From: Pseudomonadota bacterium
GTDB lineage: Bacteria > Pseudomonadota > Gammaproteobacteria > Burkholderiales > Rhodocyclaceae
Direction of reading: 5' to 3'
Assembly (NCBI GenBank): GCA_018262245.1
Contig: JAGTRV010000011.1
Coordinates: 1 to 35,107, forward strand
Length of the DNA stretch: 35,107 nucleotides
In this document: in pieces, positions 30,245 to 35,107 of the stretch
How positions within the stretch are numbered: position 1 is the first letter of the stretch
Layout: each line of letters starts with the position of its first letter
Notes under the pieces: model-generated
What the model saw: only the letters and a program-made list of their open reading frames with translations
Database searches by the model: none
Told to the model about the DNA's origin: nothing
Position numbers and translations under genes: made by a program

Positions 30245-32518
30245 ATGACGCTGCCCCTGGCTCTTTGCACGGGACTCTGCTTGCTGGCTTTCAGCGGGGC
30301 AACGGCCATGGCTGCCGGGAAGTCTGAAGCCACCTGGGTAGTCGACCCGGCGCTTCCCGGCGAAAACCTGCCGCCTGTCGGGCGTTCGCAATTCGACCGT
30401 TTGTTTGCTTCCGAGCGCGCAGGCAAGGTCGACTACGACCTGCCCTTCCCCTTCGAAGCGCTGCTCGGCCGCATCGACTCCCAACTCAGCGGTGATCCAT
30501 CCAGCCCGCTGCCGCCGGCCAAGCGGGTTCTGATTCCACTCGGGCGTTCGCTGCAGCGCACTGCCGCCGCGCCCGATTATTTCGCGTTCCCGCGCGTGGT
30601 GGTCGCCGTCGATTCACCGCCGGCCTCGCCGTCAAACCTGCTGCTGAAGGATCGCCTGTACATCGGCTATCAGGAAAAATCGGCGGTACTGGAAGTGATC
30701 AGTTACAACGAAACGGTCGGACGTTTCGAGTTCCAGCTGGTCAAGGACTATCGGGCCGGCGGAGAACCGCAGGTGGTCTACGCCAATCGCACACTCTGCT
30801 ACGCCTGCCACCAGAACGGCGCGCCGATCTTCTCGCGCGCCCTGTGGGACGAAACCAACGCCAATCCACAAGTCGCCGCGTTGCTTGCTGCCAGTGGAAA
30901 AAGCTTCTACGGAATCCCGCCCGAACGGGGCGTCGACGTCCCCTACGCCATTGACATCGCCATCAAGCGTTCCAACGGCTTTGCCCTGACCCAGCGCCTG
31001 TGGCAAGAAGGTTGCGGTGACGCCGACCTGTCTGGCCGCCGCTGCCGTGCCGGCCTGTTCACCGCCGCGTTGCGTCATGTTCTCGCCGATGGCCGCAAGG
31101 CTGCGGTAGCGGCACTCTTGCCTGCCGAAATCGCGCGGCGCTGGCCCGGCGGACTCGCCACCGCCCCCGCAGACATTCCCAACCGGAATCCTCTGCAGGG
31201 CCTAACCAGTTGGCCCGATGACGCGGCCCGACAGGTGGCCTACTCTCACGTTCCGGCCCGCTTCGAACCTTTGGCGCCACGTCAGCCTCAGGCAATCTGG
31301 CGAGCCGATGCCACCGATGCGATGGATCAACTGGTCAACGGCTTGGCCGAATTCGTCGCCGCCAGCGACCGTCAACGGCTCGAAAACGCGCTCGCTGCCC
31401 GACCAGCACATGTCGTCCGCCATGAAGTACCCTGCCGCTTTGAAACCCGAGCTTCCCGCTGGTCGGTGCGTTGTCAGCCGGCCGCTGGCGAGACCGGTCC
31501 GCAACTGACTGCGACACTCGAAATAACACGTGGAAAGGTATCGGGCGGGAGGCTGGAACGCTTAGCCCTGCCGGGCGGTGATACCCTGAGTTCCGTAGCG
31601 CTAATCGGCACAGCCCCTCGCTCCAATGAGCAATTCTCCCTTGTCCCAGAGGCTACCTCTAGGCAATCACAGATACGCCCGTCACACCGGCGAAAGCGAC
31701 CGCAGGAAGTGCAGAGCCCGGTGTCCAGTTCCACGGTTGTTCTGGATTCCGGCTTTCGCCGGAATGACGATTCTCCGACCAATCGTCCCAGGGGTGCCGA
31801 CGGCAACCCGCTGACGCGCATCGCCTTTCAGGTTTCATCGAACGATCCGACTGATGGCCGTGTGACCGTCGATTTTCGCCAGGAGTTTTCCGGCGTCGAG
31901 AAAGCCGTCATGGACATGGCTGAAGGTCCGGACGGCGCGGCGCTTTTCGGCGCCCGCCCGTTTCCGCGCGAACAGCTTTTCGCGGCGCTGCTTTCCCGGC
32001 TGGACGCACCGGTTGTAGCGGCCTGTTGTCAGGCCGCCGACAAGCTTCCGCCACCGCACCTCGAAGTACCCGCTATCGCACCGGGCAGCTCGGCCACGAT
32101 GCCGATGGAAAAGGCCCTGCAGGGCTTCTACCCCTACTGTGCCACCTGCCACCAGAGCGCCGAGACATTCCCACCGAATTTCCTTTCCGGCAATGCCACG
32201 CAGGTCGCCGCCCAACTGCGCCAATGCGCACCGCGTCTTTACGTGCGACTAGCCATGGCGGACCTGACACCCGAGCAACGGGACAAGACCCCGATGCCGC
32301 CGGAGAGCCTGCTGCCTGCCTTCGCCACAACTAGTGCCGGCTGGCGTACCAGCCCCGCACGCGCCGCGCTGTTCGCCCAAGTTAGCGACTGGCTGAAAGC
32401 CGAAACCGGACAGCCCCCAAACCTGAGCCAGCTGCTGGCCGGTGGTTACGAGGCTCTGCGCCCCTGTCTGCCGACAAATGACTCCGTGATGCACCCACCA
32501 CGAAGGGAAGCACCATGA
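30245..32518 (+). CDS. Exported cytochrome c with two CXXCH motifs and in-frame repeat insertion
   Basis: The 757-aa protein starts at ATG 30245 (RBS GAGGA). The signal peptide MTLPLALCTGLCLLAFSGATAMA is followed by heme motifs CYACH (185-189) and CATCH (632-636). The stretch around residues 479-508 encodes a palindromic repeat (VVLDSGFRRND), so ~30 residues are foreign to the family and form a basic, disordered-looking loop. The reading frame is kept. The stop overlaps the next start by ATGA. Function unknown; probably a periplasmic electron carrier or oxidase subunit acting with its neighbours. Confidence 0.75.
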   Translation: MTLPLALCTGLCLLAFSGATAMAAGKSEATWVVDPALPGENLPPVGRSQFDRLFASERAGKVDYDLPFPFEALLGRIDSQLSGDPSSPLPPAKRVLIPLGRSLQRTAAAPDYFAFPRVVVAVDSPPASPSNLLLKDRLYIGYQEKSAVLEVISYNETVGRFEFQLVKDYRAGGEPQVVYANRTLCYACHQNGAPIFSRALWDETNANPQVAALLAASGKSFYGIPPERGVDVPYAIDIAIKRSNGFALTQRLWQEGCGDADLSGRRCRAGLFTAALRHVLADGRKAAVAALLPAEIARRWPGGLATAPADIPNRNPLQGLTSWPDDAARQVAYSHVPARFEPLAPRQPQAIWRADATDAMDQLVNGLAEFVAASDRQRLENALAARPAHVVRHEVPCRFETRASRWSVRCQPAAGETGPQLTATLEITRGKVSGGRLERLALPGGDTLSSVALIGTAPRSNEQFSLVPEATSRQSQIRPSHRRKRPQEVQSPVSSSTVVLDSGFRRNDDSPTNRPRGADGNPLTRIAFQVSSNDPTDGRVTVDFRQEFSGVEKAVMDMAEGPDGAALFGARPFPREQLFAALLSRLDAPVVAACCQAADKLPPPHLEVPAIAPGSSATMPMEKALQGFYPYCATCHQSAETFPPNFLSGNATQVAAQLRQCAPRLYVRLAMADLTPEQRDKTPMPPESLLPAFATTSAGWRTSPARAALFAQVSDWLKAETGQPPNLSQLLAGGYEALRPCLPTNDSVMHPPRREAP
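31680..31769. repeat. Palindromic repeat copy C inside a cytochrome gene
   Basis: The left arm CGTCACACCGGCGAAAGC (31680-31697) differs at two positions from the copy at 34059. The right arm (31742-31769) is identical over all 28 bases to the copy at 34395. The arms are inverted around a 44-base centre, total 90 bp or 30 codons, which preserves the reading frame. Confidence 0.85.
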
Positions 32519-34032
32519 CTGACAATTTCAAACGCGCGGATAACCCGTGGAAGCGGCGCTTCCTGATCCTCTTCATTATCACCATAGTCATTCCGGTGCT
32601 TATTGCCGTGTGGCTGTTCAATCGCTTCGGCGGCGACGTTCCGGTCGATTACGACAGTCCGACCGAGCACTTCAAGTACGGGTCGACCGGTGGCGAGCAC
32701 GAAATGGGCTTTCCCTACTGGATCTGGCGGGCGCTGCCGGAAGTCTGCCCGCAGTATCTGCCGGGAAAGGGCTACCAGTCGCTGGGCATGATCTATGAGA
32801 AGAACCCGGACGGTAGCGAGCGAGATGTTCCGGTCGGCACTTCGAAACGGCGTTTTCAGGGCATAGACCGGGTTTTCTTGAATTGCGCCGTGTGTCATGT
32901 CAGCACCGTGCGCACCGCCATCGACCAGCCGCCGGCGCTTGTGCTTGGCATGCCTGCCGCGACCTTCAACATCAAAGGTTTCGAAGAGTTTTTGTTCCGC
33001 TGCGCCGCCGATCCGAAATTCTCCAAGGAATACGTCGTTCCTGAAATTCAGCGCCAGGGCGCCGACCTTGATCTGCTCGACCGCTATCTGGTTTATCCGG
33101 TTGCCATCGCCATCATGCGCGACCGGGTGCTGGCACTGGCCGGACGCTTCGACTGGGTGTTCAAGCAGCGCGAGTGGGGCCCGGGCCGGGTCGACACCTT
33201 CAATTCGGCCAAGGTCATCTTCAACTTCCCGATGGCGCATCTCGACCCGAAAGAGCTGGACGCGCCCGCCGACTTCCCTTCGATCTGGCGACAACGCCAG
33301 CGTAAGGAGCCAAAGGAAATGCAACTGCACTGGGACGGTAACAACACGACCGTCGAGGAACGCAACAAGAGTGCCGCCTTCGGTACCGGCACAACACCGC
33401 CGACCATCGATCTGGCGCGCATCAAGCGCGTCGAGGACTGGCTGCTGGACGCCAAGCCGCCGTCTTTCAAGGACTTCTTCTCGATTGACGCGCAACTCGC
33501 CGCAACGGGTGCGCCGATCTATCAGGAGTACTGCGCCGCCTGCCACGGCGCCTCAGGCAGCAATTTCACCGGCGAATACGTCGGCCAGGTGGTGCCGCTG
33601 GAAAAGATCGGCACCGACCGCCGCCGTCTCGATTCCTACACCTATACGCTGGCGGTGAACCAGGCCACGCTCTATGCCGGCTACCCGTGGCGATTCACTC
33701 ATTTCCAAAAGACCCACGGTTACGCCAACATGCCGCTCGATGGCCTCTGGCTGCGCGCGCCGTATTTGCATAACGGCGCAGTGCCCAGCCTGCGCGACCT
33801 GCTCGAACCTGCAGCCACGCGACCAAAGGACTTCTATCGTGGCAACGACGTCTTCGACCCGGTCAAGGTTGGTTTCGTCTCGGACGTTCCGGAAGCCAAC
33901 GGCAAGAAATTCTTCCACTTCGACACCGCACAAGCCGGCAACGGCAACGCTGGCCACGAAGGCAAGGCCTACGGTACCGAACTCTCCGACGCCGAGAAAA
34001 CGGCGCTGGTCGAGTTCCTCAAAACGTTTTGA
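32515..34032 (+). CDS. Membrane-anchored diheme c-type cytochrome
   Basis: The 505-aa protein starts at ATG 32515, overlapping the previous stop. An N-terminal helix (FLILFIITIVIPVLIAVWLF) has no clear cleavage site, so it should anchor the protein facing the periplasm. Heme motifs are CAVCH (124-128) and CAACH (340-344). After the second comes GLWLRAPYLHNGAVPSLRDLL, close to the conserved loop of MauG/RoxA-type diheme oxidases and peroxidases. It shares FKYGSxGxExxxGxPYWI and NCAVCH with the next gene, so the two are tandem paralogues. Enzymatic activity on an unknown substrate is inferred from the motif only. Confidence 0.85.
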   Translation: MTDNFKRADNPWKRRFLILFIITIVIPVLIAVWLFNRFGGDVPVDYDSPTEHFKYGSTGGEHEMGFPYWIWRALPEVCPQYLPGKGYQSLGMIYEKNPDGSERDVPVGTSKRRFQGIDRVFLNCAVCHVSTVRTAIDQPPALVLGMPAATFNIKGFEEFLFRCAADPKFSKEYVVPEIQRQGADLDLLDRYLVYPVAIAIMRDRVLALAGRFDWVFKQREWGPGRVDTFNSAKVIFNFPMAHLDPKELDAPADFPSIWRQRQRKEPKEMQLHWDGNNTTVEERNKSAAFGTGTTPPTIDLARIKRVEDWLLDAKPPSFKDFFSIDAQLAATGAPIYQEYCAACHGASGSNFTGEYVGQVVPLEKIGTDRRRLDSYTYTLAVNQATLYAGYPWRFTHFQKTHGYANMPLDGLWLRAPYLHNGAVPSLRDLLEPAATRPKDFYRGNDVFDPVKVGFVSDVPEANGKKFFHFDTAQAGNGNAGHEGKAYGTELSDAEKTALVEFLKTF

Positions 34033-34058
34033 ATAACGTATGAGCCAATTTCACCCGC

Positions 34059-34086
34059 CGTCATTCCGGCGAAAGCCGGAATCCAG
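34059..34086. repeat. 28-bp repeat, left arm of GIY-YIG unit
   Basis: Starts CGTCATTCCGGCGAAAGCC and is the exact reverse complement of the copy at 34395-34422. It contains its own short hairpin (TTCCGGC-GAAA-GCCGGAA). Confidence 0.9.
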
Positions 34087-34096
34087 AAAAGGCACA

Positions 34097-34382
34097 TCAG
34101 ACAATGTCGCCGTACAAATCTCGCCACTCTGGATTGTTGGACTCAATGAGCGAGAGCTTCCATGCACGTCGCCACTCCTTGATGGCCTTTTCACGCTCAA
34201 TGGCCGGTTGCATCGTATCGTGAAGCTCGTACCACACCAGCGTATGGACGCCGTACTTCTTGGTAAATCCTTCCACGAGGTTTTTTTTGTTGCCAAATCC
34301 TTTGGACAAGATCGGACGTGACGCCAGTGTAAAGCGTACCGTTTCTGCGACTGGCAAGGATATAGACACATGGCTGTTTCAT
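34097..34382 (-). pseudogene. Frameshifted GIY-YIG nuclease gene
   Basis: The 5' part (ORF 34197-34382) encodes MKQPCVYILASRRNGTLYTGVTSDL, the GIY-YIG core (here VYI..LYTGVT) of the small UPF0213/YhbQ-like family. The 3' part continues in another frame (NLVEGFTKKYGVHTLVWYE, AIEREKAIKEWRRAWK, NPEWRDLY), which is the rest of the same domain. The frames meet at a run of 8 T on the plus strand (34281-34288); one base fewer would give a complete ~94-aa protein. It is therefore a pseudogene by slippage, a programmed-slippage gene, or a sequencing error. It is tightly enclosed by two 28-bp inverted repeats and lies antisense inside the cytochrome operon. Confidence 0.85.
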
Positions 34383-34394
34383 CCACGCAGATTA

Positions 34395-34422
34395 CTGGAT
34401 TCCGGCTTTCGCCGGAATGACG
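34395..34422. repeat. 28-bp repeat, right arm of GIY-YIG unit
   Basis: Starts CTGGATTCCGGCTTTCGCC and is identical to the right arm of copy C at 31742-31769 and an exact inverted copy of 34059-34086. It begins 12 bases upstream of the GIY-YIG start codon. Confidence 0.9.
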
Positions 34423-34459
34423 GAATGGATGTGCATCGATTCTCTGAGGGGATAACATC

Positions 34460-35107
34460 ATGACCACCACCGGCTCCCGCAAAACCTGGCTCAAAATCAT
34501 CGGCATTTTCGTATTCGTTCTGCTCGCCGTTGGCGCCTGGATTGGTTACGACCGGGGCTTCCGCGAATACCCGCAGCCGGACTGGGTTAACGCCACGCCG
34601 GAAATGCGTTTCAAGTACGGCTCGATCGGCGCCGAATACGACGCGGGAATTCCCTACTGGATTTTCTACGTTCTGCCGCGCATCTTCCCTGAAAAGCTGA
34701 CACAGGACGGCGTGGTCTTACCCGGTGGTTATGCCGCCCTCGGCGTTCCCTGGGAGATGGGCCAGGAACTGCCCGCCGGCTTCACCAAGAAGCGAATCGG
34801 TTTCGACCGCGTAGCCAACAACTGCGCCGTCTGCCACACCACCAGCTATCGGGAAACGCCGGATTCCAATCCGGTCTTCGTCGTCGGCGGCGGATCGCAC
34901 ACGACCAATGTTGAAGGCTTCTTCCGCTACCTGATCGACTGCGCCAAGGACCCGCGTTTCAACAGTGACATCCTGATGGCCGAGATCAATCGCGTCACCA
35001 AGCTCGACTTCATCGACTCGCTGCTCTATCGCTTCGTGATCATCCCGATCACCAAGAAACGCCTGCTGGAGCGCGAGGCCCAGTTCGCCTGGATCTACCG
35101 CAAGGAC
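34460..35107 (+). CDS. Membrane-anchored c-type cytochrome, 3' end outside window
   Basis: The first 216 codons are visible from ATG 34460 (RBS GAGGGG). An N-terminal anchor helix (IIGIFVFVLLAVGAWIGY) is followed by FKYGSIGAEYDAGIPYWI and heme motif CAVCH (122-126). It aligns along its length with the N-terminal part of the gene at 32515, so a second CXXCH is expected beyond the window. Similar regions include GFDRVANNCAVCH against GIDRVFLNCAVCH. It continues the cytochrome operon, separated from it by the GIY-YIG unit. Confidence 0.8.
   Translation, partial: MTTTGSRKTWLKIIGIFVFVLLAVGAWIGYDRGFREYPQPDWVNATPEMRFKYGSIGAEYDAGIPYWIFYVLPRIFPEKLTQDGVVLPGGYAALGVPWEMGQELPAGFTKKRIGFDRVANNCAVCHTTSYRETPDSNPVFVVGGGSHTTNVEGFFRYLIDCAKDPRFNSDILMAEINRVTKLDFIDSLLYRFVIIPITKKRLLEREAQFAWIYRKD

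Follow-up and report, generated by a model that had tools for sequence, protein, structure and literature searches.

RAYTs (TnpA-REP), HUH tyrosine transposases, are thought to spread the GTAG REPs, and their genes are flanked by palindromes that are also scattered as dimers (REPtrons, REPINs). MITEs of insertion sequences offer a second point of comparison: a short non-autonomous unit that shares its ends with a larger, gene-bearing unit. A separate group of REPs, the CGTC superfamily, was described by Di Nocera 2013 (PMC3733652), with a CGTC (or TGTC/CCTC) tag, an 8-bp stem, a 4-nt loop and a CCA(G) tail, mostly arranged as head-to-head dimers; it includes Neisseria dRS3 (CGTC-1) and the R. 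conorii elements RPE-6 (CGTC-1) and RPE-4 (CGTC-4). That survey, in which most CGTC repeats came from alpha-Proteobacteria, described in-frame intragenic REPs that encode amino acids, and it reported the CGTC REPs to be without a dedicated transposase and no RAYT to be flanked by CGTC repeats. The Rickettsia elements RPE-4 and RPE-6, and the longer RPE-1, are palindromes lying in frame within protein genes.

We examined a stretch of 35,107 nucleotides (the window) that carries a REP dimer of this kind within a cytochrome-like gene and, 2.3 kb downstream of this REP, a unit in which similar arms enclose a small nuclease gene. The features are as follows.

30245–32518, plus strand: di-haem cytochrome-like ORF, intact, 757 aa, carrying the REP insert; CXXCH at residues 185 and 632; homologues in relatives
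31664–31783, plus strand: segment of 120 bp (residues 474–513) missing from 17/17 congeneric homologues in alignments; ends uncertain by a few bp
31680–31769, no strand assigned: CGTC-tagged REP, head-to-head dimer, 90 bp (69 bp canonical plus 21-nt nested insert)
31680–31728, plus strand: left arm, CGTC ACACCGGC GAAA GC[21 nt]CGGTGT CCAG; uninterrupted ACACCGG-type left arms occur in L061 and L075
31698–31718, plus strand: nested 21-nt insert GACCGCAGGAAGTGCAGAGCC, placed in the left arm's hairpin loop; REPs of G037, G011 (two) and G013 have it at the corresponding point
31742–31769, minus strand: right arm, CGTCATTCCGGCGAAAGCCGGAATCCAG as read on the minus strand; same letters as the GIY-YIG unit arms
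34059–34422, no strand assigned: GIY-YIG unit of 364 bp, a gene between two head-out CGTC arms
34059–34086, plus strand: left CGTC arm of the GIY-YIG unit
34395–34422, minus strand: right CGTC arm of the GIY-YIG unit
34097–34382, minus strand: small GIY-YIG nuclease gene, frameshifted at a T8 run; PF01541 in the downstream part, bit score 22.5 against a cut-off of 22.6

The element at 31680–31769 reads CGTCACACCGGCGAAAGC-GACCGCAGGAAGTGCAGAGCC-CGGTGTCCAG-TTCCACGGTTGTT-CTGGATTCCGGCTTTCGCCGGAATGACG, with the CGTC tag at both outer ends (CGTC...GACG), and as single-stranded DNA it folds better than its shuffles (z = −3.4). Its right arm (CGTC-ATTCCGGC-GAAA-GCCGGAAT-CCAG) has the expected stem of 8–9 bp, loop of 4–5 nt and CCA-like tail, as does the left arm once the 21-nt loop insert is discounted. 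The first-pass annotation had described a 90-bp element with inverted arms, one of them identical over 28 bp to an arm of the GIY-YIG unit. Both statements hold, and the identity (28/28) is to the arms at 34059–34086 and at 34395–34422 alike; the 90-bp unit is real, but it is a composite of a 69-bp REP dimer and the 21-nt insert. Chance can be excluded because the 28 nt occur exactly three times in 35 kb and the arm motif read backwards has no match in the window's genome. The family is widespread in the order. Relatives have up to 302 CGTC arms, the window's own draft genome only 5–8, and the head-to-head arrangement is shared by the window copy and most of the copies inspected in genome G060. 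Judged by its sequence, the element is a non-autonomous CGTC-tagged REP of the same superfamily as RPE-4/RPE-6 and dRS3. The likeness to in-frame Rickettsia elements proposed at the outset is thereby borne out, although the kinship is one by the rules of PMC3733652 and not letter by letter, and here we deal with a single insertion in what is probably a Dechloromonas-related beta-proteobacterium. A 13-nt sequence in the right flank (GACCAATCGTCCC, 31777–31789) recurs in L047 (G089, another genus), where it is equally far from a REP arm; a search of all loci examined found it only in the window and in L047.

The 21-nt loop insert distinguishes the window copy from the CGTC REPs of the 2013 survey. 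Four REPs from three other genomes of the genus (G037, two in G011, and G013) have the 21-mer at this very point of the loop, with the shared pattern GACCG[C/A]AGGAAGTGCA[G/A]AGCC (one change allowed in one copy), and this recurrence marks it as an insert of its own. Including the window's copy at 31698–31718, 21-nt sequences near GACCGMAGGAAGTGCARAGCC thus occur at one loop point in five copies, spread over four genomes of the genus (the others in L206, L199, L212 and L205). A related form with the core AGGAAGTACCCC sits in other REP loops (L044, L322), and further genomes of the genus (L197, L207, L213, L210, L204) have the same core outside REPs, as part of the conserved stretch GACNGCGACCNNAGGAAGTGCAGAGCTA.

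Searches of Pfam and PDB with the cytochrome ORF (30245–32518), and of Rfam with window positions 31000–35107, gave no match. A search of 150 relatives yielded 17 congeners and four more distant homologues that align at the insert site. Residues 474–513 are absent from all 17 of the congeneric proteins, the comparison that the first-pass annotation had called for, and also from the four more distant ones; an unrelated homologue carrying the segment as conserved protein but lacking the DNA repeat was sought among the aligned homologues and none was found. The annotation had given the insertion as exactly 30 codons with no stop. The repeat is indeed 90 bp long, in frame and stop-free within the 757-aa ORF, but the protein is longer by 40 residues (120 bp), with ~16 bp to the left of the REP and ~14 bp to its right also extra. 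These ~30 bp are not explained by the REP and count against our best explanation. The repeated CAATC at 31664 and 31780 was considered as a target duplication and rejected, since removing one repeat length leaves the wrong frame.

The insert falls between the two haem motifs, in a linker of weak conservation, where majority identity is 0.50 (residues 455–472) versus 0.73 for the whole cytochrome. Third-position G+C is lower in the insert (0.62 versus 0.70), and this, together with the still letter-perfect right arm, gives the insertion a recent look. Because the insert length is a multiple of three and there is no in-frame stop, the cytochrome could persist with ~40 extra residues; these are most likely tolerated rather than useful, and the peptide would be neutral. 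The predicted tryptic peptide reading through the insert is RPQEVQSPVSSSTVVLDSGFR.

The gene inside the downstream unit matches PF01541 (GIY-YIG), just under the curated cut-off for this frameshifted copy, and is not an HUH tyrosine transposase; the family of proteins to which it belongs resembles the UPF0213 structures 1zg2 and 1ywl. Eight consecutive T on the plus strand (34281–34288) mark the site of its frameshift, for which either a genuine mutation or a sequencing error could account. Of 18 GIY-YIG loci screened (~3 kb each), one was that of the window and the other 17 came from 16 relatives; 13 had CGTC arms (12 of the 17 without the window's own), all near the gene and none elsewhere in the locus; the five armless loci were L088, L096 and L100–L103, less one that was cut short by its contig. 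This screen was only a first indication of a link between gene and arms. An alignment of these GIY-YIG proteins was used to scan GTDB genomes, and the best 80 loci by protein similarity were taken; since the query came mostly from arm-flanked genes, the figures for these loci describe one GIY-YIG clade and not all GIY-YIG genes, and the more distant hits L100–L103 have no arms. The 80 loci come from alpha-, beta-, gamma- and delta-proteobacteria, Nitrospira, Planctomycetes, Elusimicrobia, Chloroflexi classes and others. A CGTC arm lies within 400 bp of the GIY-YIG gene in 70 of the 80, and on both sides in 46. Arm density falls from 7.3 per kb (0–100 bp from the gene) to 3.2 (100–200 bp), 0.43 (200–400 bp) and ~0.13 (1–6 kb), so that arms are ~60-fold denser beside the gene than in the background. 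Head-out orientation was seen for the outermost arms in 47/55 and 47/60 cases, and 35 of the best 80 loci have head-out arms on both sides, forming units of 352–628 bp. The two stems of a unit are identical in 18 of these 35 loci, versus 4.7 expected on shuffling between loci.

As in the RAYT-REP system, the presence of the enzyme tracks repeat number: the median number of arms per genome is 16 with a GIY-YIG gene and 0 without (p = 9e-6, phylogeny ignored). Nine GIY-negative relatives nevertheless hold at least 20 arms, which could mean that the gene was lost, that it acts from another place or that it is not required. When genome-wide REP type was compared with the type of the GIY-YIG unit, types were mixed within genomes among the matches listed.

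Several genomes have more than one GIY-YIG unit. In G205 a pair of copies shares 94% identity across 362 bp, starting with CGTC and ending with GACAA, in unrelated flanks; they share the unusual right-arm stem ATACCGTC as well as the same left arm. Two copies in G230 (88% identity over 413 bp) have the same ends and likewise unrelated flanks. In G206 the two copies are only 67% identical, with stems that differ but remain paired, and here too the match extends from one tag to the other; G233 has a longer shared stretch, which takes in an outer palindrome. These copies show that the CGTC tags are the outer ends of the mobile unit. Comparison of orthologous filled and empty sites revealed no clean target duplication, the sites being too diverged or rearranged beside the element; presence or absence of a REP was clear at several intergenic sites of close relatives, with no clean junction. 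In this the units may differ from MITEs, and they do differ in that each end is a hairpin and that no known transposase goes with them. In G060 (L298, L299, L302, L311) REPs sit beside shared longer sequences or in palindromes (for example TTCAGTTAAG next to the tag, or a terminator-like hairpin), which suggests preferred targets.

We consider it likely that a REP dimer landed in the cytochrome linker and that the GIY-YIG nuclease is the dedicated enzyme of the CGTC REPs. A non-autonomous head-to-head dimer would have inserted into the variable linker of the di-haem cytochrome gene, and the same CGTC ends bound a larger unit with the small GIY-YIG gene in place of the short spacer. The nuclease is envisaged to recognise the CGTC hairpin ends, to nick or cut there, and to start copying of its own unit and, in trans, of the short dimers, as RAYTs would do for GTAG REPs. 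That the nuclease mobilises CGTC REPs strikes us as fairly probable from the arrangement of gene and arms. We also lean towards the wider proposal that CGTC REPs represent the ends of a minimal autonomous element with a ~95-residue GIY-YIG nuclease as its only gene, whose dimers would be mobilised in trans in many phyla, some of them landing in frame. Against mobilisation stand the arm-rich GIY-negative relatives, the filled and empty sites with no clean target duplication, the broken state of the window's own GIY-YIG gene, and the fact that GIY-YIG enzymes are known as endonucleases, not transposases.

GIY-YIG enzymes are indeed the classical homing nucleases, and the nearest serious rival builds on this: the nuclease would cut REPs and its gene would be copied as a passenger into existing REP dimers, the REPs themselves being spread by a RAYT-like HUH transposase, replication slippage or recombination. 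Homology ending at the arms is expected from such homing too, the nine GIY-negative genomes rich in arms fit it, and REPs are known targets for insertion sequences (PMC1525189). The within-unit stem matches speak against it, however. With stems matching within the unit in 18 of the 35 loci that have head-out arms on both sides, and with the G205 copies sharing both the unusual right stem and the left arm, the arms seem to travel with the GIY-YIG gene; the 2013 survey found no CGTC-flanked RAYT (PMC3733652). We regard homing into REP dimers as unlikely, at perhaps the level of a minority view worth keeping in mind.

Two further readings concern the cytochrome insertion, which we otherwise take to be the landing of a REP dimer. 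The 40 residues might have been recruited for cytochrome function, as is imaginable for RPE peptides, and to the left and right of the insert the ORF remains intact, with both CXXCH motifs kept; the segment is nonetheless confined to one genome and to a poorly conserved linker, and its recent look likewise makes recruitment very improbable. Slightly more improbable still is a false join in a metagenome-assembled contig. The window's draft genome comprises 379 contigs at 84% completeness, repeats cause misjoins, and the neighbouring GIY-YIG frameshift falls in a homopolymer; yet the two sides belong to one gene in the same frame, and the left and right halves are similarly close to each homologue (identity 0.64–0.66 and 0.60–0.64, e.g. 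0.66 and 0.62), as would not be expected of a chimeric contig.

Read as a REP landing, the cytochrome case is a clear example, with many empty homologues, of how repeats can make proteins longer, a route already known. The first-pass annotation saw in it a repeat family that can create protein sequence; it does add one more case, but the kind of event is not new, in-frame REPs of this superfamily having been reported in 2013. Of greater value is a candidate enzyme for the CGTC REPs, including Neisseria dRS3 and the Rickettsia RPEs, said in 2013 to lack a transposase. Where the 2013 survey had no enzyme gene, here CGTC arms surround a GIY-YIG gene in many phyla, and these enclosed genes permit a concrete and cheap test of the transposase question. 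If true, the proposal would set beside the RAYT-REP system a second one that works with an unrelated enzyme, with a predicted GIY-YIG nuclease domain in place of an HUH tyrosine transposase and CGTC in place of the GTAG tag. A search of the open-access literature, with most subscription papers and all bioRxiv preprints outside its scope, found no paper tying GIY-YIG genes to CGTC REPs or dRS3; given this scope, we cannot claim priority for the link.

REPs also lie within other genes. An automatic screen of 303 REP elements, each flanked left and right by 250 bp or more, yielded clear in-frame REPs at six further sites in conserved genes; many of the remaining candidates were antisense or spurious frames. 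In the HrpA helicase (L077) the REP lies between HA2_C and the OB fold, in HsdR (L162) inside ResIII, and in NifJ/PFOR of two Thiobacillus (L106, L115) at the same junction, between POR and EKR; the others are in HsdS (L141), HsdM (L167) and a PMT_2 protein (L060). The REP sequences of L106 and L115 differ, although the POR-EKR junction is shared. We found no special coding adaptation of the dimers, which are open in 3.27 of six frames versus 3.80 of six for dinucleotide shuffles; since they are no more open than shuffles, the in-frame copies appear to be those that selection against frameshifts has spared. A single arm leaves five of its six frames open, the sixth usually being closed by the TGA of AATGACG. 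A literature search keyed on the peptide VIPAKAGIQ found no paper; this peptide belongs to an outer-membrane lipoprotein-like ORF (L308, L325) that has a single REP arm in open frame close to its beginning, and the arm is conserved between the related genomes G060 and G061.
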